DNA of 29,348 bases, from positions 1,648-30,995 of the IMG/VR virus record IMGVR_UViG_3300028384_000953. One strand, given 5' to 3'. Source of the DNA: a virus. A program made the position numbers and the translations under genes. Below, piece by piece: positions 1,755 to 29,203 of this stretch; the stretch's first letter is position 1; each line of letters starts with the position of its first letter. The notes beneath the pieces were generated by a model. The model was not told where the DNA came from and ran no database searches. It was given only the letters and a program-made list of their open reading frames with translations.

Positions 1755-3743
1755 TTAAGATACTGAGAAGGTTCCTTGCACTACGTACACACCTCCGTCC
1801 ACCCCTGGATAAGTGGCATCGTACAAGTTTAGATCCACAAACGTGGTACCGGAGCCGGTTTTTATTGCAGTCATCGCAACCCGAGGACTTTCTCTTACCG
1901 CGTGGCAAACAAAGATACCTGCGGAACTATACGGTAAAGCTAAGCGTAATGTGTTGGCACCTGTACCATTCGTGGTTATCTGAAACCTTACATCAAACTT
2001 AACTTCATTACCCTTTCTATTAAAGTTTGTATAAAGTATTGTGTAAGAAGTTATTGTACCTGACGTAGCTGATAAAGTAACTGGTAGTCCTATACTCCCA
2101 GAATGCCCTACGTTTTCACCAAACCATAAATCTGGGTTGTGATACTCTAGGATAGGATTAGTATTTCCGGACACCTTGTCACCGTATATTTGACAACCAC
2201 CTCCCGCGTACTGGCTAAAAGCCCTAAAATTAGCGCCATAAGTCCCGAACGGTGCTAAATGGTTATCAAATATTTTTACTTGCTCTACAACCGTATTAGT
2301 ACATGCGATAGCCTCTACGCCAGATCCTGCTATCTTATTTTTAGAAATAGTCGCGGCTGAGAGTGAGAAGCCATTAATAAGGATACCACGTTGAAGCATA
2401 TCCGTGATGGTGTTTTCACTAATATCAACCCCGTTTAAAATTCCTCTATGATTGTTATCAGATAAGAGGTTAACGCCATAAGTAGCTAGAGCGCCGTCCC
2501 CTTTAAACCTGTTCCGGGCTATCGTAATATCATTACAAGTCCCGCCAAATTCGGGATACAGTAAAACTGATTGATTAACTGCACTAGTGTAATTATTAAA
2601 TACTCTAAGGCTTTCTGATGTAGTACCCGTTTTAGTATTTAAATTAACAAAATAGGTACCTACTCCAGATAAACAATTGTCTATTTGTACATTCTCAAAA
2701 TCCCTTAATAAGATACAATCACCAATTTGAGTAGAAGTAGCCCCTAGGATAAAATAGCAATCAGTAATAGTGAAATTAGAAACTCTAGAATTTTCCCCTA
2801 AAGTTACATGAGAACTACCTGCCGCAGTATCTATAGAACGAAATACGCAACGATGCATAACTCCCCAGGTAGCACCATTAACATTAATACTTTTAACACC
2901 ACGAGAAAGAATAACATTAGAAAATGCCGCAGTTCCTGTAGTGGTTACGTCAATAGAACCCCCGGAATTTCTAGCAACATGGGAAGTTATTTCAAAATCT
3001 TTAAAAGAGCAATTATGACCTGTACCATTGTTTACGTTAATTATATCTACACTACTGAAGATACCTTTTACAGTAGATGTGTTTTCATTATTTAAGCTAG
3101 GAGGTACTACACCACATAAATGAAATTCCTTGTTAGTGACATTGATAGATGAAACTCTTGTGACCCCTTCACTAATATAAACTTTTGCCCCGGTTGACGG
3201 TAATGCAGTTATAAGGTTAGTCCAATAGGAGGTTTCATCACTAGAGTCGTTGTGAAGTGCACCGAACTGCTTAGAAAAATAAATTTTATTTGCAAAATTA
3301 CAATAAGCTTGTGCGTTTACCCCGATAAGGTTTATATAGGTTCCACCATCAGGGGTGCCGGTACCTGGTGCCACAATTTCATAGGTATTAGCCCCGGTAT
3401 CCCCAACAACAAATCTACCTAAGATCCTGACCACATCCCCTACTTTTACATCGGTAGAGTTCAGTAAATCATTTAATACATCGAAGGTTTTAGTGATACC
3501 TCTTAAGTTTGATGCATCCACCGCAGGCATAGTAGCACCGCCCTGTCCATCGTCTCCTAATTGTACAACACTTCCTACTGAAGTGCCCAATTCGGCTCTT
3601 TTAACTAACGTGGCAAAGGCGTTGTCACGGGATACCCTATGTTCTACATTTTCCGAAGAGGCGTTTAACTGTTTTATCAGTAATTCTGCGTCTTGGTTAA
3701 TGGCGGTAGCTTCCGGCAAACCATCTAACGTTGAATCTGGCAT
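1755..3743 (-). CDS. Tailspike or tail fibre with right-handed beta-helix (receptor-binding protein)
   Basis: A 662-aa protein. Residues 5-45 (LPEATAINQDAELLIKQ region) resemble the N-terminus of the adjacent collar fibre and probably form a virion-attachment module. Near 157-171 the stretch SKQFGALHNDSSDET matches the start of pectate-lyase-like beta-helix domains of phage tailspikes. Residues about 180-540 are Asn-, Ser-, Thr- and Val-rich with repeated short strands, as in a parallel beta-helix. The last ~110 residues (NRKGNEVKFDVRF, then LRLALPYSS) look like the small beta-sandwich that caps many fibre proteins. It probably binds, and perhaps degrades, surface polysaccharide. The ATG overlaps the stop of the collar fibre (TAATG) with AAGGA upstream. 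No catalytic residues can be assigned. Confidence 0.85.
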   Translation of the reverse strand: MPDSTLDGLPEATAINQDAELLIKQLNASSENVEHRVSRDNAFATLVKRAELGTSVGSVVQLGDDGQGGATMPAVDASNLRGITKTFDVLNDLLNSTDVKVGDVVRILGRFVVGDTGANTYEIVAPGTGTPDGGTYINLIGVNAQAYCNFANKIYFSKQFGALHNDSSDETSYWTNLITALPSTGAKVYISEGVTRVSSINVTNKEFHLCGVVPPSLNNENTSTVKGIFSSVDIINVNNGTGHNCSFKDFEITSHVARNSGGSIDVTTTGTAAFSNVILSRGVKSINVNGATWGVMHRCVFRSIDTAAGSSHVTLGENSRVSNFTITDCYFILGATSTQIGDCILLRDFENVQIDNCLSGVGTYFVNLNTKTGTTSESLRVFNNYTSAVNQSVLLYPEFGGTCNDITIARNRFKGDGALATYGVNLLSDNNHRGILNGVDISENTITDMLQRGILINGFSLSAATISKNKIAGSGVEAIACTNTVVEQVKIFDNHLAPFGTYGANFRAFSQYAGGGCQIYGDKVSGNTNPILEYHNPDLWFGENVGHSGSIGLPVTLSATSGTITSYTILYTNFNRKGNEVKFDVRFQITTNGTGANTLRLALPYSSAGIFVCHAVRESPRVAMTAIKTGSGTTFVDLNLYDATYPGVDGGVYVVQGTFSVS

Positions 3744-4711
3744 TATGCAATCCTTTTGATAAAGTGTACGGTTACATAAGGAGGTTGAGTATCTATTTGA
3801 GTATTAGACGTGGATGCGCTATGAGTATGAGGTAATCCATTACCTGGAGTGTTACCCGTTGCACTATTACCACCTTTAAAAGAACTGTTCCAAATAGAAT
3901 TATCAAAATTAGTCTTACCTAAGCCTGCATGAACATCCCTAGGGAAGTTGTCGTCTATACCAAAAAGTGAATGCTGAGAGGATACTTCTCCAATCATTCC
4001 ATGGGCGTGGCGTGGCATCTGATCTTCTGTAAGGCTATGTCCTGCAACAGATACTGGGTGAGAGTGACTAACTGCGTTTTGCCCTCCTACGTAACCTGGA
4101 GGCCTAGAAGGTATCGCAGCACGTGGGTATCTACCGAAGTCTGAATAAAAATCCGGGGTTCCGTTAGTCCCATCACATTTAACAAAACCTGTTGGTATAT
4201 CAGCTTCTGCTCCATGCCACATAATTACTGCTCCTATGGGAACCACTGCGGAGATAATCGCTTGAAGTTGATCATAAACAGTTTTAACTGCCCTTGATGT
4301 AGCGTATTGGGAACTACTGTCTGTGGTTACACTATCTGATGGCGGGTAATTAGCGACATTACCTAAACCTACTTGTGTTTTGTCTACATTATGAGGGTTA
4401 GCCACATTACTAGAGTGTGCACCGATTGCCGCATTCATTTCCGCAACAGAAGGAACTGAAAGATTACCTCTAGCAAGAGCTGGGTTCACCTCCGATAAGT
4501 TATTCGCTATAGCTAATTGGGGTATATTTAAAACGTTACCTAATCCAAGCGAACTAGCGGTTATATTGGGATGGGCACCTGCACTATTTACATGATCATT
4601 AAATAACAATGCTAATGAAATCCTGCGGTCAACACTCCCTTGTTTGATATGTAATTCATCTGTCAGTTGTGTGGAGGTAGCTGGATCTAAATCAGATATT
4701 TCTTGAGTCAT
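3743..4711 (-). CDS. Tail fibre with collar domain
   Basis: A 322-aa structural protein. Residues 6-33 (SDLDPATSTQLTDELHIKQG, then DRRISLALLF) form an N-terminal module shared with the next gene. Two fibre repeats follow: HPNITASSLGLGNVLN near 47-62 and HNVDKTQVGLGNVAN near 107-121, the usual H-N-x-K-x-x-V-G-L-G-N-V-x-N type. Residues about 158-195 (PIGAVIMWHGAEADIPTGFV, then CDGTNGTPDF) match the phage tail collar domain. The C-terminus is His/Gly/Ser-rich and ends PPYVTVHFIKRIA, typical of such fibres. The ATG directly follows the preceding stop, with GAGAGG upstream. It likely acts as a short fibre or adaptor at the baseplate rim. Confidence 0.88.
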   Translation of the reverse strand: MTQEISDLDPATSTQLTDELHIKQGSVDRRISLALLFNDHVNSAGAHPNITASSLGLGNVLNIPQLAIANNLSEVNPALARGNLSVPSVAEMNAAIGAHSSNVANPHNVDKTQVGLGNVANYPPSDSVTTDSSSQYATSRAVKTVYDQLQAIISAVVPIGAVIMWHGAEADIPTGFVKCDGTNGTPDFYSDFGRYPRAAIPSRPPGYVGGQNAVSHSHPVSVAGHSLTEDQMPRHAHGMIGEVSSQHSLFGIDDNFPRDVHAGLGKTNFDNSIWNSSFKGGNSATGNTPGNGLPHTHSASTSNTQIDTQPPYVTVHFIKRIA

Positions 4712-15151: not shown

Positions 15152-18100
15152 TTAAACTGCGGCGGGTATCAAACCGGACCTTGTTAAGATTGTTTGAACA
15201 GCCTCTTTCATGGAGTTTGATAGCGTGGTTTCTGATTGTAGGTAATCCCAAACTTGTTGAGCAACTTCTGTTGCAGACGCATCAGAAAGACCCGCTATGG
15301 CATCCGTAATCACAGTTTGTGCTGCATCAAGTTCTGCTTTAGTCGGACCGTCGTAATCAGACAATGCTTGATCCACTTGAGCATTAACGTCAGCAGCAGA
15401 TAGATTGTTTAACGCAGAAATTAAATTTTGAGTTGTAGCATGCGAAGCGCTTTGTGCTGTATCAAGTGCGTCTAAAGTCCCAATAGTCCCCGCTATAGTA
15501 TCCACCTGCTTTCCAGAGTGTGACCAAACCTGTTCAGGGGTTATATCATTAAGGTTTGATATAGCGGTTCTTGTCGAGGCGTGCTCCTGTGTTTGCGAAG
15601 TATCAAGCTGATCTAGCGTTGTAATAGTGCCTGACATGCTTGAGATAACACCCCCTGTTATTAACTTAGTAGAGTGATTCCATACATCCGCTGCGGATAT
15701 ATTGTTAAGGGAAGTTATAGAGGATTGTGTTGAATTATGCTGTACTTCTAAAGAAGAATTTAATTCATCCAAGGTGTTTATCGTTCCTGACATACTTGAG
15801 ATAACACCTCCAGTAACCTCCCTTGTGCCATAAGACCAAAGATCCGCCGCAGATATATCATTGAGCGCTGTAATTTGGGACGCTTTAGCAAGTGCAGTAG
15901 AACTTTCAATCTCCGGTAAGGTTGGTACTGTAGCTAACATACCACCGGTTCTTTCAAGATCTGCACGAATAGCTGCAACCAATGCAATAACATCTATATC
16001 TTGACTATTAATAGCAGTAGCAATAGCATTAATTAACTGTTGCCCGTCACCTTCATTCAGCAATGCAGCTTCTATTTCAACTACCGAAGGAGGTGTGGTG
16101 TAAGAAGCCCCTGCTAGCCGTGAACCTACTGAAGTGTCGATCCTACCTAATTCAACAGATAACTCTGTTCTTATATCCGCTACGCTTACATTATTGAGAG
16201 CAGCCAATCCTGAATCAAACTCTGCTTTAGTCGGACCGTCGTAATCAGACAATGCTTGATCCACTTGAGCATTAACGTCAGCAGCAGACAGATTATTTAA
16301 TCCGGTTACATCTGATGTTTTAGCTAATACCGAAGATGCTTCAATATCCGCTACGCTTACATTATTGAGAGCAGCCAATCCTGAATCAAACTCCGCTTTA
16401 GTCGGACCGTCGTAATCAGACAATGCTTGATCCACTTGAGCATTAACGTCAGCAGCAGACAGATTATTTAAACTCGTAATATCTACCGTCTTAGCTAACA
16501 CAGTAGAGTTTTCTAAATTAGCTAAAGTGGGTAAGTCACTAACTTGTATAGTAGACCCGTTACTATTGTCAGTAATCTCTACATTTTCATAGATTCTAAC
16601 CAAACCTCCCGTACAAGAAGGTTCAATAGTTATTTCACCAGATAGACCATCTATTGAAAGGCTATTTCCTGTTACTACATTTGCTAAAGAACAACGTCCA
16701 GAGAAATTTGATAACCGTAAGTTTGCAGTGTTATTTTCTAAACTTATCACAGGATCTAATCCTGCACTCGCTGCAATACACCGATCAAAAACGGTATCAG
16801 TACCTGAGACGGACACGTTAGCGGCAATAAGGCATTCCGATAGTAAACCTGTTAAACCTGTAGTAGACATACCTTGGAAGATACACCCTTCCGCTTTAAA
16901 TATAGTTGTGCCTGAACCTATGGCACCCATTGTGATAAAGTTTTTTAACGTAGACCTTTCAAAATCTTGTCCATTAAAATTAAAAAGGTTACCTGCAATA
17001 CTTGCCTCAAACTCTAAACCTGAACAATCTACAGTAGCTGCCGCAGGAACTGTAGGGGAAGTAACATCTATAGTATGAATACCTAGTAAATTAGCTTGGG
17101 TTATCGCACTATCTAAGGTGTTAGTAGGAGAATTAAATGAACCATTACCATTAATAAGGGCGGAGGTGTTACAGAACACTTTTCCAGCTATATATCCCAC
17201 AGAAGTAGCCACAGAACTCACTAATGCTGTAGTGGATAATGAAACTACAGTCTCTCCGGTTTGTGTAGGAGTAGAAGATTTTTGGATCGTCTCCCCGGAT
17301 AAAACTAACCTGAAGTAATAAGTTGTACCTCCAGAAAAGTTAAAACCAAAAGATTGCCCCGAAATACCAGAAGCTAACTCATTGGAGTTACTATCTGCAT
17401 CGGAGGAACTGGAGAAAACTTTCCAAGAATCTACTCCAGTAAAAGTAAAGAAAGAGTCTTGAGTAGAATCAAAGAAAGATGCTACGGTTGCGCCGTTTAC
17501 GGTAGTCACAGTACCTGTAGTACGGATAGTTCCCGTATAAGTGGAAGTCCTTAAGGTGATAGTGTTACCACTGACATCTACATTTGAACTTGCGGTTTGA
17601 TCCAAAACTACATTATACGCACCAAAATCTATAAGCTCTCCCTCAATAGTTGCGTATACTGCACCATTATCAGCAAAGTTATCATAAAGGTAAGATAGCA
17701 ACGAATCGTAACAATCTTGGTTAGTATTTATGAAAGCTAGTGCATCAACCACCACTTTTGTTCTACCTGACCATACAGTATCAGGTAAAATTGTTAAAGC
17801 TGCATCAAAAGTATCTTCAACTGTGATAGTCTGGTTTAATATTTGGAAACCATAGGAAAATACCCTTAATACATAAGGGCTAAAAGAGGTACCATCATTT
17901 AAGTTATAATCCTGGACTGCTGTAGTCAAAAGGTCTGTGTGCCTTACAAAGATCTCTGAGAATTGACCCGTACTAATCGTTTGACTATCAACAACGGTTT
18001 GCGTATTATCCACAAAAGTGGTTTTTAATTCATTAGTAAAAGAGGAGGTATCTGTGTTAACAAACGAAGGTTTTATTAAGTTCCCATAACGTATTATATG

Positions 18101-19093
18101 GGTTCCCTTATCACCATCACTATTAAGGAAGGTTGGTAATGCATCTATATCAGACTTTTTCGCTATAATTTCATAAACACCTGCTCTAGCATCCCCTGTT
18201 AAACGTATTAACCTCTCCGTAATATCTATCAGACTTCCATAAATTTGACGGGCGTTTGTACCAAAATTTAAATTTATATAACCTACTTGTCTACAATTTC
18301 TAGCATTTACTTCGAATCTACTAACACTAGAAAGTGGGTTTAAGAACCCGATGGAAGTAGTGGTAGCCCCTATTGCTTGACAATCCACTATCGCGGATTT
18401 ATTACCCTCTATACGTCCACCAAAGTCTCCGTTTGTTGTAACCCCTACTAGTCTTGCGTGAGATCCACTACTTCCTGCACCGTTTAGCCTCCAAAAAATT
18501 TGATTTTGAATAACATTAACAGACCCCCCGTACATACAAAATAAGCCATAATTGTAATTATTTTTTTGTATGAAATGACCTACACCAGACCCTACCTCAG
18601 TAACTTGACAGGAATCGTAAGTATACATATCTCGGTTATTTACGTAACTATACTTTCCTAAAATCAAACCGGCTCCGTTTTCAACCGATATATTGACTCC
18701 ATTCCAAGATATATGGTGGTTTACTATGTTGAAAAACACTCCTGTTTTTATAATGAAATAACCTACAAAATTTAAGTGATTTGTACTACTTAAATTCGCA
18801 TGCCCTTGGCTTACTAATTCTGTAGCATTGTATGATAAATATAAAGCATCCCCTACAGTTGGGTCGTTATCGGTAAAACCTAACAAAGGACTTGTATCTA
18901 GACTATGGTTTAAGGTTAAATCTTGTCCACTTACCGCTACAATTTCTCTATGTTGGTGTCTCGCGGTGCCTGAATTAAAGCACACTAACCGCCCGACATC
19001 GCCGGAATCTGGGGTGAATCCTGTAACAGTTAGGGTTGTACCACTAATTGCAGAAACCGTACCTTGTTTAAAGGGTGTGCTCAATGTACCCAT
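15152..19093 (-). CDS. Large repeat-containing structural protein (possible neck or fibre protein)
   Basis: A 1313-aa protein, the largest here, between a small membrane protein gene and the sheath gene. It has no signal peptide. Residues about 1-340 are beta-rich with an Asn/Gly pattern suggestive of a beta-helix. About 375-560 (VRHTDLLTTAVQDYNLNDG, then VLRVFSYGFQILN) resembles a domain I associate with large fibre proteins of marine phages. About 560-860 is beta-rich and Ser/Thr-rich. The C-terminal third is helical with repeats: LNNLSAADVNAQVDQALSDY units at about 875, 932 and 1228, and three ~50-aa units containing VISSMSGTI-like cores. The end is VWDYLQSETTLSNSMKEAVQ plus a short tail. 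I infer a virion appendage such as a neck fibre or collar; no enzymatic motif seen. Ribosome binding site GGGAG. Confidence 0.7.
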   Translation of the reverse strand: MGTLSTPFKQGTVSAISGTTLTVTGFTPDSGDVGRLVCFNSGTARHQHREIVAVSGQDLTLNHSLDTSPLLGFTDNDPTVGDALYLSYNATELVSQGHANLSSTNHLNFVGYFIIKTGVFFNIVNHHISWNGVNISVENGAGLILGKYSYVNNRDMYTYDSCQVTEVGSGVGHFIQKNNYNYGLFCMYGGSVNVIQNQIFWRLNGAGSSGSHARLVGVTTNGDFGGRIEGNKSAIVDCQAIGATTTSIGFLNPLSSVSRFEVNARNCRQVGYINLNFGTNARQIYGSLIDITERLIRLTGDARAGVYEIIAKKSDIDALPTFLNSDGDKGTHIIRYGNLIKPSFVNTDTSSFTNELKTTFVDNTQTVVDSQTISTGQFSEIFVRHTDLLTTAVQDYNLNDGTSFSPYVLRVFSYGFQILNQTITVEDTFDAALTILPDTVWSGRTKVVVDALAFINTNQDCYDSLLSYLYDNFADNGAVYATIEGELIDFGAYNVVLDQTASSNVDVSGNTITLRTSTYTGTIRTTGTVTTVNGATVASFFDSTQDSFFTFTGVDSWKVFSSSSDADSNSNELASGISGQSFGFNFSGGTTYYFRLVLSGETIQKSSTPTQTGETVVSLSTTALVSSVATSVGYIAGKVFCNTSALINGNGSFNSPTNTLDSAITQANLLGIHTIDVTSPTVPAAATVDCSGLEFEASIAGNLFNFNGQDFERSTLKNFITMGAIGSGTTIFKAEGCIFQGMSTTGLTGLLSECLIAANVSVSGTDTVFDRCIAASAGLDPVISLENNTANLRLSNFSGRCSLANVVTGNSLSIDGLSGEITIEPSCTGGLVRIYENVEITDNSNGSTIQVSDLPTLANLENSTVLAKTVDITSLNNLSAADVNAQVDQALSDYDGPTKAEFDSGLAALNNVSVADIEASSVLAKTSDVTGLNNLSAADVNAQVDQALSDYDGPTKAEFDSGLAALNNVSVADIRTELSVELGRIDTSVGSRLAGASYTTPPSVVEIEAALLNEGDGQQLINAIATAINSQDIDVIALVAAIRADLERTGGMLATVPTLPEIESSTALAKASQITALNDISAADLWSYGTREVTGGVISSMSGTINTLDELNSSLEVQHNSTQSSITSLNNISAADVWNHSTKLITGGVISSMSGTITTLDQLDTSQTQEHASTRTAISNLNDITPEQVWSHSGKQVDTIAGTIGTLDALDTAQSASHATTQNLISALNNLSAADVNAQVDQALSDYDGPTKAELDAAQTVITDAIAGLSDASATEVAQQVWDYLQSETTLSNSMKEAVQTILTRSGLIPAAV
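15333..15412 (-). repeat. Third copy of the ~80-bp coding repeat
   Basis: This 80-bp stretch differs by only two bases from 16221-16300 and by three from 16392-16471, all inside the 1313-aa gene. It encodes the unit LNNLSAADVNAQVDQALSDY plus DGPTKAE. It is about 0.8 kb closer to the 3' end of the gene than the tandem copies. Confidence 0.9.
16173..16471 (-). repeat. Tandem 171-bp coding repeat (57-residue unit)
   Basis: Two copies of a 128-bp segment (16173-16300 and 16344-16471) differ by one base and are exactly 171 bp apart, one 57-codon unit. The 43 bp between them are more divergent. Each encodes LNNLSAADVNAQVDQALSDY, DGPTKAEFDSGLAALNNVSV and ADI. Near identity at third codon positions points to recent duplication or conversion, not only protein-level selection. 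Confidence 0.92.
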
Positions 19094-23549: not shown

Positions 23550-24482
23550 TTATAAACCTTGTTTTTGTTGTTTAATAAGTTCAGACATTGCTTTAGTTAG
23601 AGCTTCGTCTGATGCAGAACGACCATCAGGGTTACCTGAAGTTTTAAGTAACGCTTGGTCAGACACTGGCGTAGTTTCTTCAGCATCTTCCGCAGAGTTC
23701 GCTCCCTCTAGGGCAGCCTCTAACGCAGTGTTAGCTTTAGTAAGAGCTGATAGTATCGTTTTACCTGCGTCTTCTAACTCCGGATGCAGACTAATCTCCA
23801 TTAAAGCTTTTACCATACCCGTTTGATCTTCTACGTAAGAGCAAGTTTTAACAAACTCGGTAGTCACTTCTTTCTTATGTGCAGCTGCACGGGCTTTAAG
23901 TAGTTCTTCAGATTTTCGTAGAGCTTCGATTTCTGATTGTTGTTTCTCTAGTACGGCGTTAAACTCATTTTTTTGTTTTTCAAGTGCAGCCATCATTTCT
24001 TTAGACATACCGGATTCTCCTGTTTGAATGTCTGATTTTTCATTATCCTGAGGAGAAACCCCAGATTTATTAAGTACTTTATCACCAACTTGAGCTTTAA
24101 GACTTGTTAGTTCCTTGTATAAGCTCTCTGGTACAGAAGAGCCTACCTGAGCACTTTTTAAAAGAGTCACTCTACCAATTTTATCTTGTAGGTACTCCTT
24201 ATAAGTTACCTCTCCTCCTGGGTTAACTTCGGTACTATACCCTAAAATACCTGCCAAGATTTGTGCGTCCTCTGTATACATATCAAGAAAAACGCGAAGG
24301 AACTCTACCATGGTAAGATCTAAGGTAACCTCTTTCTCTACCCTAGAGGATTTTTGCAGTAAAGTTGTCATCTGATTTGCAGCAGCAGAAACTAAAGCAA
24401 CGTGGGGTTTACTCCCATCTTCTCTAGGGCTTATAAAATCCATGTATGTACAAAGATGTTTTTTACTTTTATCTAGTGCCAT
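23550..24482 (-). CDS. Scaffold-like protein
   Basis: I place the start at ATG 24482, overlapping the protease stop (TGATG), rather than the GTG one codon earlier, giving 310 aa. Residues about 1-130 form a globular part; about 165-210 are a long charged helix (EMMAALEKQKNEFNAVLEKQ, then SEIEALRKSEELLKARAAAH), typical of scaffolds. The C-terminus is polar and ends SELIKQQKQGL, fitting capsid binding. It lies between protease and decoration genes. Maturation would need removal by the adjacent protease. Confidence 0.75.
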   Translation of the reverse strand: MALDKSKKHLCTYMDFISPREDGSKPHVALVSAAANQMTTLLQKSSRVEKEVTLDLTMVEFLRVFLDMYTEDAQILAGILGYSTEVNPGGEVTYKEYLQDKIGRVTLLKSAQVGSSVPESLYKELTSLKAQVGDKVLNKSGVSPQDNEKSDIQTGESGMSKEMMAALEKQKNEFNAVLEKQQSEIEALRKSEELLKARAAAHKKEVTTEFVKTCSYVEDQTGMVKALMEISLHPELEDAGKTILSALTKANTALEAALEGANSAEDAEETTPVSDQALLKTSGNPDGRSASDEALTKAMSELIKQQKQGL

Positions 24483-24883
24483 CACTCTTCCTCATATACA
24501 ATTTTGCCGGTGCAACCTACAGAAAGTCCTGTTATCTCACCGTTTTTAACTTGTCGCCAAAGGGTTTCCCCCGCATCTGATTCAGGAAAATACCACTTCT
24601 GTAACCAAGTTCCTTCAGGAATAACCGTCCCTTCAATATTCATTTCACATGGAGTTACGTAAGATTCCAAAATGTTGGCACTATCTATATCAAAAACATG
24701 CTGGTAATTACCTTGGTTGCACTGTAAATTGAACTGGTAGCAACCATTTTCAACAGCATCTGGTGTAAACTTGGTATTATGTGCGTCATAAACCCCAGGA
24801 GTGGCTACCACCCAAAGCGCTACACGTTTCTCATCAACGCTTTTTAATAAAGTGGTTTCTACTGTTTGTTTATCATACTTCAT
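24482..24883 (-). CDS. Prohead maturation protease (XkdF-like)
   Basis: A 133-aa protein with the XkdF/S78-type serine protease pattern: VALWVVATPGVYDAHNTKFT (21-40), YQHVFDIDSANILESY (60-75) with likely catalytic H62, and GEITGLSVGCTGKIV (115-129) with likely catalytic S121. It follows the portal gene with a TAATG overlap and is followed by a scaffold-like gene, the classic portal-protease-scaffold order. The enzyme would cleave the scaffold, and perhaps capsid, during prohead maturation. Confidence 0.82.
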   Translation of the reverse strand: MKYDKQTVETTLLKSVDEKRVALWVVATPGVYDAHNTKFTPDAVENGCYQFNLQCNQGNYQHVFDIDSANILESYVTPCEMNIEGTVIPEGTWLQKWYFPESDAGETLWRQVKNGEITGLSVGCTGKIVYEEE

Positions 24884-26397
24884 TAAGATTTATCCTTATT
24901 CGCTGTGTTAGCGTCTCCGGTAACCCCTGTGGAAGCCCCTGTGCCGTTGGGCATACCCTCCTTCATACCTTCTCCAACTTTATTTTCAGCTTCGCTAGTC
25001 ATTACAGGTTTAATCGGTCGATTCCTGTCTACAGGAGGCATACCAGCTCTGCCTCTAATCCATTCAGATAACCCTTCATCCACTTCTAAAGCCTTAACTG
25101 CTACTACTTGTTGGATAAACTTACCAAGAACATCTAAGTCGGTTTGAACTATCTCATCGATCACCAGTTTAGGGGTATCACCTTTAATATCCCAACCGTT
25201 AATTGCTAGGGTAGGTTTAATCAGATCATCGTTAAAAGGTTGTAGTAAATCTTGTAAAACGGTTTTTACTGAAACTTCTAACAAGTTGTTCTTATTATCC
25301 GATAAAGCTAAAGAACCCGCCTTATCTTGACCCATTTTTAAAAGGTCTGCTAAGAACGTCATAAGGATCTTGTTTTCGTAAGAAGTTATTATTTTCTCTG
25401 TGTCGTAAGTTTTAGGTTGATTACTTTCGAGATAATCTAACTTAAATTTTTCTTGCTTTGTGTCCTCATCAATATCTCTAGGATACAAAACCCCAAACTG
25501 TTCAGCTTGACGAACACTTGAAACTACTTGCTTTGCATGAGCTAAAAATAACTTTTTATCCTCGTCTGCGTTAGGGTCAAAGTACTCCGCAGGTAAACCG
25601 TACTTTGGAACGGGACCAGAATCCTTTTGAATACCTAATGCCTGACTCTTTTCAATGATCGTTAGATAACTCCACGCAGAGTAACACCCTCTATAAGCAG
25701 AAGTCCCCTCTGGATTACCCCTTTGTTGATCACGAACGAAATGTATAAATTTATTACGAGGTATGAATTTTTTAACGCCTGTCAGTTTAGGTGCAGAAAC
25801 ATTATTAGTGCCACCTACATAGTTAGATTGAGGTGTTGTTGTGTACCAGCAACCTAAAACTTCGTCAAAATCCTCATCCATCCACCAGTGTTTAATAGCA
25901 TGCTGTGATCGGGTAGGTAAAGAATGCCAACCCCATTTACCATCATTGTAAATCGAGTTTTTACCGTCTCGTTTCTTCCATTTCTTTAGGCATATATGAA
26001 AGCCGTAGCGCTGGGAAGATAAAGCCTCCTCTAGATATACAGAGAAAGGTTTAGTCATATCACCCATACATTCATTTAAAAATTTAATTTGCTTTTTTTG
26101 TTTTGCTGTTGGATTAGACCGGTCCACCGAAAGTTTTATAGTGGTGTTCCGTATCATCGCTCTGAACGCAGTCTCTACTGACGCGATAACAGAGTTAAGG
26201 GACATTTTTAGGTAGGTGTTTCTATTAAACTCTGGGGAAAGGTCTTTTAAAAATTCTTCGCAAATTTGACCTGATGTGATTTTTAATCCAGACTCCGAGA
26301 AACTGGGAGCGATTTGAGTGGATTTGTCGTATAACCCATCTTTTGGGTCCGAAGGTACTTTTGGGGAGGTTGTTACAGCTCCTAGTATTCCTGTCAC
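24883..26397 (-). CDS. Portal protein
   Basis: A 504-aa portal. The start is GTG 26397, with AGGAGG six bases upstream; an ATG two bases before it is out of frame and meets TGA at once. Typical features are the Arg/Trp-rich middle (RYGFHICLKKWKKRDG), a central FVRDQQRGNPEGTSAYRGCY with YLTIIEKSQALGIQKDSGPV, and the C-terminal half with helical wing/crown segments. The C-terminus is Gly/Thr/Asn-rich. It lies after the large terminase, with a 93-bp AT-rich gap that holds a copy of the dyad element. The subunit forms the dodecameric DNA channel. Confidence 0.88.
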   Translation of the reverse strand: MTGILGAVTTSPKVPSDPKDGLYDKSTQIAPSFSESGLKITSGQICEEFLKDLSPEFNRNTYLKMSLNSVIASVETAFRAMIRNTTIKLSVDRSNPTAKQKKQIKFLNECMGDMTKPFSVYLEEALSSQRYGFHICLKKWKKRDGKNSIYNDGKWGWHSLPTRSQHAIKHWWMDEDFDEVLGCWYTTTPQSNYVGGTNNVSAPKLTGVKKFIPRNKFIHFVRDQQRGNPEGTSAYRGCYSAWSYLTIIEKSQALGIQKDSGPVPKYGLPAEYFDPNADEDKKLFLAHAKQVVSSVRQAEQFGVLYPRDIDEDTKQEKFKLDYLESNQPKTYDTEKIITSYENKILMTFLADLLKMGQDKAGSLALSDNKNNLLEVSVKTVLQDLLQPFNDDLIKPTLAINGWDIKGDTPKLVIDEIVQTDLDVLGKFIQQVVAVKALEVDEGLSEWIRGRAGMPPVDRNRPIKPVMTSEAENKVGEGMKEGMPNGTGASTGVTGDANTANKDKS

Positions 26398-26436
26398 ATA
26401 ACCTCCTAAATAAGTAATTAGTATATTTATACCAAC

Positions 26437-26488
26437 TTACCACACTTTTTAAAAAAGTCCTGTAAAAATTTAACTAATTTTACTAAAT
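26437..26488 (-). promoter_or_regulatory. Conserved dyad/promoter-like element, copy A (before portal)
   Basis: On the minus strand this has GTAAAA and TTTTAC arms around a short spacer, then 17 bases, then TGTGGTAA. A possible extended -10 (TGGTATAAAT, 26425-26434) follows, ending about 28 bases from the portal GTG. A near-identical element lies at 28868-28920. I infer a phage-specific promoter or operator. Confidence 0.6.
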
Positions 26489-26490
26489 TT

Positions 26491-28038
26491 CTAGCTTAAG
26501 AACGGATTATTGCCATTAATTTGTTCAAGTTGGGTTAGATCAGGGATAGTCATAGGTCCCACTGATTTCTTAGCTTGTACTAAATGGTTATAAACAGTAG
26601 CTATTGCATCAGCTATATCATCTTTTTTAAGATCATCTTTATCAGAGGATTTAGTAACACCATCAAATCTTTCTAACTGCCGGTAGAACTCCGCTAATGC
26701 TTTTGGATGGAAGGTACTCTCTACAATGTAGATAACACCGTCCTTAAGGGCGTGCGCAAAGGGAGTGAACCGTTGAAGTTTACCTTTCCCTCTAGCGGCT
26801 GCGTCATCCTTCTGGACAAGTAACCCATGGCTCCTCAAAAGGTTTGCTGTTAATAAATAATCAACAGAACCTCCTGCGGGGTCTTTGGGGATAACTTGGG
26901 TAACGGCCTCTCCATCATGAAGTGCTTGTTTAAGCAGAACGTCTTCCCGTTCCCCTGGATTAAGTCGGAATATTCCGGGAATCTGAGTTTTTTTATCAAT
27001 GTTATCTGAATGGTGGTCCCCAAATACTACGAATTGACCTTTATTAGTCTTAACCATTCCTACCCCTGTCGTGAAATCAGGGTTGGTTGTGACTTCCGTA
27101 ACCGCCGCATAACCTTTATCCCAACCTCTTGCCTTTACTCCGGGAGGTACCCTATCTAACTTGATAAAATCATCTCTGGTACACAGTTGGGTGCCTACTG
27201 GGCGGACTTTCCAATTCCCGTACAGGTTTCTCTCTTGCTCTACCGGAGGTAATGACAGCAAGTCTTGTAGGTACTCTGGCTCTTGATTTATAAGTATTTG
27301 GTTATCAAAAATGTTACCTGCCACGAAGGTGTAAGATTTAGGTTCAACTGTTATCCATTTATCTTCAATGGAGTTATAAACCCTACATAATTCAGGGTAT
27401 TTTTCCATTAACTCCTCTTTGCTATCAGAGAGGATTATGTCGGGGCCTTTAGTTATGTAGTATCTAATTTTACCAGATTTTGACCTATCTGGTCTACCAG
27501 ACTCCTCTAAGTAAGGATCTACCAGAGCAGCTAACCAATTATCCGGGTCTGGGTTACAAGCTAGTAACATAAACTTAGGGCAGGTGCTACCAGGGTTTCT
27601 GTTCCTAGACATAAGGAATGTAATCTGTTTCTTCGAGAATTGTACTGCCTCGTCAAATATAATTATATCGAATTCTAGTCCACGGTAAAGCTCTACATCC
27701 TTTTCATGCATAACGTACTGAAAGTACCAAACAACATTACCAGGGAACCTTAACCTCATAGGTTTTGTAGTGTGTCCGTTTTTTATTAAGTACGGACTCA
27801 TCAAAATACGACATTTCTCAAAAAATTGTTCAATCTGACCAGATGTCTGTCGAAAGAAAATGACTTTAGAGTTAGGGTGATATAGTGAGATTAAAGCTTT
27901 CAAAGGAAGTAAGTGAGACTTCCCTGAACCCATGGCACCGCCGTAGATCATAAGCTTTACCATAACATCCATAGCAATCTCTTGACTGCCAGGTTGAGGT
28001 TCTAACTCCTTATTATCCTCGATATAAACCTTGGTCAT
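26491..28038 (-). CDS. terL: Terminase large subunit
   Basis: A 515-aa ATPase/nuclease. Walker A is GGAMGSGKS at 33-41, Walker B DIIIFDE at 124-130, and a coupling segment LLACNPDP at 158-165. The nuclease domain starts with GWDKG (D307), includes KDPAGG (D386) and ends with KKDDIADAIA (D473, D474, D477), the three acidic positions expected in this fold. It follows a 49-aa ORF and precedes the portal gene. The ATG at 28038 has GGAG about 7 bases upstream. Confidence 0.94.
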   Translation of the reverse strand: MTKVYIEDNKELEPQPGSQEIAMDVMVKLMIYGGAMGSGKSHLLPLKALISLYHPNSKVIFFRQTSGQIEQFFEKCRILMSPYLIKNGHTTKPMRLRFPGNVVWYFQYVMHEKDVELYRGLEFDIIIFDEAVQFSKKQITFLMSRNRNPGSTCPKFMLLACNPDPDNWLAALVDPYLEESGRPDRSKSGKIRYYITKGPDIILSDSKEELMEKYPELCRVYNSIEDKWITVEPKSYTFVAGNIFDNQILINQEPEYLQDLLSLPPVEQERNLYGNWKVRPVGTQLCTRDDFIKLDRVPPGVKARGWDKGYAAVTEVTTNPDFTTGVGMVKTNKGQFVVFGDHHSDNIDKKTQIPGIFRLNPGEREDVLLKQALHDGEAVTQVIPKDPAGGSVDYLLTANLLRSHGLLVQKDDAAARGKGKLQRFTPFAHALKDGVIYIVESTFHPKALAEFYRQLERFDGVTKSSDKDDLKKDDIADAIATVYNHLVQAKKSVGPMTIPDLTQLEQINGNNPFLS

Positions 28039-28049
28039 AGGTCACTCCA

Positions 28050-28199
28050 TTACTTCTTATTCCAATCAATCTTATCGAAGTTACTTCGATAGTTCTCAGC
28101 AGAGGTGTGCATTTGTTCACGCTCTCTTGCATTTTTAACAATATGTTTTTTATACTTTTCAGGGTCATTAGCTTTATGGTATCTGATACCTTTATACAT
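28050..28199 (-). CDS. Small basic hypothetical protein
   Basis: A 49-aa frame (MYKGIRYHKANDPEKYKKHI, then basic/polar residues ending DKIDWNKK) with AAGGA before the ATG. Its stop is 11 bases before the terL start and overlaps nothing. It is Lys/Arg-rich and might bind DNA, but there is no family match I can name. A terminator hairpin lies just upstream, so its expression depends on read-through or antitermination. Confidence 0.6.
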   Translation of the reverse strand: MYKGIRYHKANDPEKYKKHIVKNAREREQMHTSAENYRSNFDKIDWNKK

Positions 28200-28223
28200 A
28201 GGGATTCCTTGGTTAGTTAACGG

Positions 28224-28254
28224 TAAAAAATAAAGCGGGAGGAGGAGGCCCGCT
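28224..28254 (-). terminator. Intrinsic terminator between terS-like gene and terL operon
   Basis: On the minus strand a perfect 6-bp stem AGCGGG / CCCGCT (28234-28254, loop CCTCCTCCT) is followed by TTATTTTTT. This is a standard rho-independent terminator. I see no clear promoter between it and the 49-aa ORF at 28199, so downstream genes may need partial read-through, antitermination or an unseen start site. Confidence 0.75.
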
Positions 28255-28313
28255 CATGAAAGGTACTACAGCATTAGTTATTTTTATTATAAGGAGGGAG
28301 TGAGGGCGGGTGT

Positions 28314-28706
28314 TTACGAGTAATTTTTTATACGGGGCCGGATTACAGAAACCTTATCATTAGCGATAGTTTCTTTTATTTTTTGTATGGTCTTTTCTTC
28401 CGCATTTGAAAGATCGGTTTCATCAGATGTTGTTGAAGGTTCTTCTGAAGGCTCTGCTAACGATCCTTTCTCCTGGATAAGAGGCTCTTCTAAGAACAAC
28501 TCCGGGTTCATAGACTTAAAGTGTTTCCAAACGTCAAGAGCAGCACGGTAACGAACTTGTGCGGTTAATTCCTTTGCTGGGATACCAGTTAGTTCTGAAT
28601 CCCCTTCCATGATACCCACCATCAAGTTCCATGCACCAAAACCTTCTTCCAGTACTTGGGTTACTGCTTTCTCCATCTGCCTTTTAGTTAGAGTTTTCTT
28701 CGTCAT
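28314..28706 (-). CDS. Putative terminase small subunit
   Basis: I place the start at ATG 28706 (130 aa), since GGAGG stands 4 bases upstream; the in-frame ATG at 28724 lacks such a site. The first ~80 residues are helical (KRQMEKAVTQVLEEGFGAWN, then LTAQVRYRAALDVWKHFKSM), and the rest is an acidic linker with Ser/Glu/Thr and a basic tail (RPRIKNYS). Placement two genes before terL is right for a small terminase, but no helix-turn-helix can be shown. Confidence in function is moderate. Confidence 0.5.
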   Translation of the reverse strand: MTKKTLTKRQMEKAVTQVLEEGFGAWNLMVGIMEGDSELTGIPAKELTAQVRYRAALDVWKHFKSMNPELFLEEPLIQEKGSLAEPSEEPSTTSDETDLSNAEEKTIQKIKETIANDKVSVIRPRIKNYS

Positions 28707-28833
28707 AATACCTCCAAAGGTCATTATTATTGTTATACAGGTTATCTAAGTATTCCCCTAGATCAAACTCTTGGAAAGAATCAAGATCTGTTTTATTATA
28801 GTCGTTGAAGTATAAGATCTCTGAAGGGTACAT
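28684..28833 (-). CDS. Small acidic hypothetical protein overlapping terS-like gene
   Basis: A 49-aa ORF (MYPSEILYFNDYNKTDLDSF, then acidic and Asn-rich, ending YYDEENSN). It is the first frame after the control region, about 32 bases past the putative -10 of element B, and overlaps the terS-like ATG by 23 bases. There is no strong ribosome binding site, only GGT about 10 bases upstream. Possibly a real leader gene for the packaging operon; family unknown. Confidence 0.45.
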   Translation of the reverse strand: MYPSEILYFNDYNKTDLDSFQEFDLGEYLDNLYNNNNDLWRYYDEENSN

Positions 28834-28867
28834 AACGGTAATACCAATTTTGTGATTTTGTTTTATA

Positions 28868-28920
28868 TTACCACAAAAGTTTTAACCCGTTCTGTAAAAA
28901 TTTAACAGTTTTTACTATAT
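28868..28920 (-). promoter_or_regulatory. Conserved dyad/promoter-like element, copy B (before packaging genes)
   Basis: On the minus strand, GTAAAAA and TTTTTAC arms flank CTGTTAAA, followed after 18 bases by TGTGGTAATAT, which could be an extended -10 (TGGTAATAT, 28865-28873). It matches copy A over most positions. The first ATG (28833) is about 35 bases past its end. Confidence 0.6.
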
Positions 28921-29132: not shown

Positions 29133-29161
29133 ATTATACACTATTTTGAACCATTTGTCAA
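29133..29161 (-). promoter_or_regulatory. Consensus sigma70-type promoter
   Basis: On the minus strand, TTGACA (29161-29156) and TATAAT (29138-29133) are separated by exactly 17 bases. Both boxes match consensus fully. The predicted start is near 29126. It points at the packaging and structural genes, with a leader of about 290 bases before the first ORF. Host RNA polymerase should recognise it. Confidence 0.85.
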
Positions 29162-29203
29162 TACTTTATGTATATTTTACTGTTATTTTATGTAAAGGTC
29201 TGA

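Follow-up and report, generated by a model that had tools for sequence, protein, structure and literature searches.

Late promoters of phage T4 have TATAAATA as their sole element, and the Ogr/Delta site of P2 late promoters is TGT-N12-ACA. At the Mu middle promoter Pm, part of a phage developmental switch, a Mor dimer binds an inverted repeat of 16 bp with its centre at −43.5 and so takes the place of the −35 element for the host sigma-70 polymerase (PMC4390567). T4 middle promoters (MotA/AsiA) also combine a phage element that replaces the −35 with a host −10, about half of them with TGn (PMC2988021). Phages 7-11 and phiEco32 carry a short recurring motif before their virion genes and need a phage sigma factor for these late promoters; the 7-11 motif is bipartite, with the consensus GTAAtg-(16)-aCTA (PMC8948821). 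An extended −10 of the form TRTG-n-TA (TRTG extended −10) has been described as well (PMC2613000).

The window analysed here is a stretch of 29,348 nucleotides, bases 1648-30995 of a virus record of 30,995 bases in total. The record is a fragment, 31 kb from a tailed phage; most of the genome, including the early and middle genes, is absent from it. Read from right to left, the minus strand encodes a 136-aa protein, TerL, portal, head-maturation protease, capsid and neck and, beyond the neck gene, tail sheath, tape measure, baseplate, fibre, lysozyme and PhoH. TerL and portal reach best identities of ~35-39%, to Aeromonas, Pseudaeromonas, FV3-type, Felix O1-type and Barbavirus myophages. Close relatives sought in IMG/VR and species genomes through TerL, capsid and sheath gave one distant match or none, and broader TerL sets returned identities of 38% at most and no close relative.

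Two copies of an element of about 50 bases lie before the terL cluster and before the portal gene, located as the preliminary description had reported. On the minus strand both gaps read TAGTAAAA-N3-GTTAAATTTTTACAG-N15/16-TGTGGTAA; the variable stretch, previously put at 15-16 bases, is the 15 and 16 bases that separate GTTAAATTTTTACAG from TGTGGTAA. The features are as follows.

26485-26478 and 28917-28910, minus strand: TAGTAAAA block
26474-26460 and 28906-28892, minus strand: GTTAAATTTTTACAG block, the identical 15-mer
26444-26437 and 28875-28868, minus strand: TGTGGTAA block
26460-26485, minus strand: copy 1 upstream block TAGTAAAATTAGTTAAATTTTTACAG, the proposed activator site, ~−58 to −33
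28892-28917, minus strand: copy 2 upstream block TAGTAAAAACTGTTAAATTTTTACAG
26462-26483, minus strand: copy 1 inverted repeat GTAAAA-N10-TTTTAC, centre 26472.5 (~−45.5)
28894-28915, minus strand: copy 2 inverted repeat GTAAAA-N10-TTTTAC, centre 28904.5 (~−46.5)
26434-26444, minus strand: copy 1 putative extended −10, TGTGG + TAAGTT, predicted start ~26427
28865-28875, minus strand: copy 2 putative extended −10, TGTGG + TAATAT, predicted start ~28858
26426-26431, minus strand: copy 1 alternative −10, TATAAA, inside TATAAATA (26431-26424), which would start at ~26419
29133-29161, minus strand: sigma-70 promoter TTGACA-17-TATAAT, 12/12 consensus, ~250 bases upstream of copy 2
24883-26397, minus strand: portal gene, after copy 1, GTG start with AGGAGG directly before it
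26491-28038, minus strand: large terminase gene (terL), in the cluster after copy 2
28314-28724, minus strand: first well-supported gene after copy 2, 136 aa, without family

By its position only, the 136-aa protein is possibly the small terminase. Both copies precede runs of same-strand packaging and virion genes. Each had been placed a few tens of bases before a gene start; for copy 2 this holds for a possible 49-codon ORF (start at 28833, 35 bases away, without Shine-Dalgarno), but the first convincing start (28724, GGAGG) is 144 bases away, not tens.

Conservation between the copies is block-wise. The upstream block is identical at 24/29 positions, whereas the spacer between the last two blocks is identical at 7/14, which is chance level, so selection on the blocks is likelier than a recent duplication that took in the entire segment. 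When up to 3 mismatches are allowed, the pattern TAGTAAAANNNGTTAAATTTTTACAG finds the two copies only (0 expected from 100 shuffles) and GTAAAA-N10-TTTTAC likewise occurs at the two copies only (0.01 expected), counts that are descriptive since both patterns were derived from the data itself. The dyad noticed earlier is real as a 6-bp inverted repeat in both copies, but alone it is weak evidence for binding of a dimer because such repeats form easily in very A+T-rich DNA.

From its sequence, we read TGTGGTAA as an extended −10 core (TRTGnTAAkWT). In both copies a TRTGn motif stands directly before the −10, as TGTGG before TAAGTT or TAATAT, and an intergenic scan of the record for TRTGnTAnnnT found on the coding (minus) strand the two copies only, in equivalent placement. 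The copy 2 version (TGTGG-TAATAT) is a good −10; that of copy 1 (TAAGTT) is poor, matching at 3/6. TATAAA, whose offset is not equal between the copies, may be the actual −10 instead. Extended −10 sites like those of the pair occur between genes in the complete genome of Aeromonas phage 2L372X (Plateaulakevirus; TerL ~39% identity), namely TTTGTGGTAAGAT at 57474, TATGGTAATAT at 66484 and 76313, TGTGTTAATAT at 61454 and TGTGATAAGAT at 49224; they precede capsid-region and other genes, the core before capsid-region genes being TGTGGTAAGAT / TATGGTAATAT. Exactly 17 bases upstream of each lies a TTGA-type −35, which is TTGAAA or TTGATA for the sites at 57474, 66484 and 61454. These extended −10 promoters are predictions, not mapped starts, and differ from the present pair in having that −35 and no conserved upstream block; their matching −10 core nonetheless lends independent support to TGTGGTAA as a host-type promoter core in this phage group. 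Across 2L372X (MK813938.1) they make up one promoter-like class of uniform build, TTGAAA-17-TRTGnTAAkAT, present in several gaps of the late region and elsewhere.

No usable −35 accompanies this core: at spacers of 15-19 the best match to TTGACA is 3/6 in copy 1 and 2/6 in copy 2. If +1 is at 26427 and 28858, the conserved block with its inverted repeat covers ~−58 to −33 and the repeat itself spans −35/−36 to −56/−57 in both copies. Since this position mirrors the activator site of Mu Pm, an activator-dependent promoter is favoured, and by this analogy we interpret the layout as a sigma-70 promoter that depends on an activator, with a predicted protein site in place of the −35 contacts. The likeness to Pm extends to the host polymerase; the differences are that the Mu site is a 16-bp repeat, against a 22-bp repeat at ~−46 combined with an extended −10 here, and that a Mor homologue was not seen in the fragment. 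In T4 middle promoters the MotA box (TGCTTtA) has its centre at −30, 12 bp from the −10, and the box is in neither copy. With the late promoters of phiEco32 and 7-11 the pair shares a short recurring motif before virion genes, but the sequences are other ones (on inspection, tAATGTAtA and GTAAtg-16-aCTA are in neither copy) and the phage sigma factor which those promoters need was not detected in the fragment. Beside the TGT-N12-ACA of the Ogr/Delta site, inspection by eye shows TGT-N9-ACA in copy 2 and AGT-N9-ACA in copy 1. TATAAATA occurs in copy 1 at 26431-26424, with no other intergenic occurrence on the minus strand; copy 2 carries TATAAAAC.

We regard it as slightly better supported than not that both copies are activator-dependent phage promoters, used by the host sigma-70 polymerase with a dimeric phage activator on the block. 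Transcription from each copy would run leftward on the minus strand, from copy 2 into the terL cluster and from copy 1 into the portal and the head and tail genes. The host RNA polymerase, carrying the main sigma factor, would contact the extended −10 (TGTGG-TAAkWT), and a phage-encoded, probably dimeric activator would bind TAGTAAAA-N3-GTTAAATTTTTACAG, centred at ~−46, and recruit the polymerase, so that packaging and capsid genes would switch on together once the activator is made. Promoter activity, start sites, activator and timing are what we infer from this arrangement, and the word late is taken from the downstream genes only (terL and portal through to tail). The activator gene is probably outside the genome fragment. 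Of the two roles first suggested for the element, a phage promoter or a regulator's operator, the promoter with an upstream block in the place of the −35 is the best supported reading, although no further copy came to light in the record or in relatives. Also against it count the restriction to two copies in one fragmentary record, the distance from block to TGTGG, which differs by one base, and the conserved A/T tracts, which would suit an UP element too. The sigma-70 promoter at 29161-29133 reads into copy 2, and transcription of the terL cluster may thus draw on two promoters in tandem, one strong and one regulated; a second promoter of that kind is absent from the portal gap. Around this strong promoter, at the right end of the record, the DNA is A+T-rich and non-coding over a long distance.

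The search for additional copies did not bear out the expectation that the element would recur: there is no third copy within the 30,995-base record, and none was found in the relatives compared, all of which are distant (TerL ≤~39% identity). As the record is a 31-kb fragment and no close relative was found, the lack of further copies is weak evidence. Three IMG/VR pattern scans, exact and gapped, gave no further copy; the matches lay in unrelated coding DNA, with one intergenic exception in an unrelated 143-kb contig, where the repeat stands directly before TTGACA. We take this one as chance because its record has no TerL match and such repeats elsewhere in the contig are no more than in a reversed-pattern control (the one other repeat equals the control in number). 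BLASTN of copy 2 against phages gave E values of 0.5 or worse among the matches listed, and a mismatch scan of related TerL loci found no convincing copy.

Candidate regulators were sought in the fragment and nine relatives. Neither Mor/C (PF08765) nor Ogr/Delta (PF04606) nor sigma region 2 had a match over the cut-off in any of them, and a MotA family search, run without a working positive control, likewise gave none. With the early and middle genes missing from the fragment, such absence says little. A single sub-threshold match to sigma-70 region 4 came from the Felixounavirus Salmonella phage SP116 (NC_027329.1; 58431-58541, minus strand), in a 109-aa frame that is a possible transcription regulator of Felix O1-type phages. 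The CapR repressor of ICP1 was a further lead; a literature search found no paper on a CapR binding site.

Because the spacing differs by one base and copy 1 has a weak −10, a phage sigma factor or an UP element may be involved instead. A phage sigma factor would read a two-part promoter with TTTTTACAG as the −35-like and TGTGGTAA as the −10-like half, 15-16 bases apart; spacer variation by one base is typical of sigma promoters, and 7-11 offers a precedent for a phage sigma with a bipartite late consensus. We still hold this unlikely, given that the −10 half matches the host-type extended −10 of 2L372X, that the sigma searches of the fragment and nine relatives yielded only the sub-threshold SP116 match and that conservation reaches upstream to TAGTAAAA, past a −35. 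In a constitutive extended −10 promoter with an UP element, host alpha subunits would bind A/T tracts from −40 to −58 with no phage factor; the block (−33 to −58) is A/T-rich with A and T tracts, and UP elements lie at −40 to −60. The near-identity of the copies, however, includes G/C positions (TAG..., GTT...ACAG), beyond what an UP element needs, and a perfect −35/−10 promoter is nearby for constitutive use, which makes this option quite unlikely. An operator would have a phage repressor or regulator on the dyad shut the promoters, or block read-through from the strong upstream promoter, until late. Both the inverted repeat in each copy and the sigma-70 promoter ahead of copy 2 fit it, but repressor sites more usually overlap the −35/−10 of a good promoter, and these copies lack a −35. 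One isolated half-site, CAGTAAAA at 29182 close to the strong promoter, is no more than chance would give. We consider an operator improbable.

Chance similarity of the two A/T-rich gaps, or what is left of an old exchange point or segmental duplication without any regulatory function, would be in keeping with very A+T-rich gaps and with no other copy being known, and when the gaps were aligned locally under unit scoring, 2/3,000 dinucleotide shuffles reached the observed score. Composition-aware scoring, in which the rare G and C are weighted more, gave 0/10,000 (Gumbel p ~8e-5), and the spacer has diverged while the blocks were kept in equivalent placement relative to the genes, so that we find such an origin quite improbable. 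Least credible, to the point of being hardly worth entertaining, is an RNA leader element (a hairpin or protein-binding site acting post-transcriptionally): the inverted repeat would suit one and upstream transcripts could include both copies, but folding of the 54-nt elements is no more stable than that of shuffles (z 0.29 and −0.03), and the stem common to both copies does not form in their minimum-energy structures. An Rfam search of the element returned no match.

For the activator-dependent promoter, the novelty is the motif itself, as the class of mechanism is already known. We advance as tentative, and rather doubtful, the stronger proposal that the block is the site of an undescribed activator (or sigma factor) driving the whole virion gene set through only two promoters in a deep-branching lineage of large myophages, replacing a −35 that a relative still uses. 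In the literature found, late-gene switching in the large host-polymerase-dependent myophages of this group is little described; the two-part site provides a handle for isolating the regulator and, when the remaining genome is known, for locating its further targets. If ordinary, the pair would still be useful annotation of the probable terL and portal transcript starts.

Some further features of these genomes were observed. The TerL genes of 2L372X (65277-65657) and ICP1 (3742-3994) are split by intron-like non-coding inserts, with homing-endonuclease-like genes nearby. In the window, the 133-aa frame at 24482-24883 resembles a head-maturation protease domain, and its best PHROG, phrog_1530, is named DNA methyltransferase and looks like a fused or misnamed family. 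Between the sheath and neck genes, 15152-19093 encodes a 1,313-aa protein without Pfam or PHROG match, whose gene has internal repeats of 171 nt at 15285, 16173 and 16344 (65-90% alike). Just left of window position 1, at record positions ~1615-1645, a run of N adjoins GAAGAAATTGAAGATTTGGAA repeats, marking either a scaffold gap or masking within coding DNA that is repetitive and coiled-coil-like.
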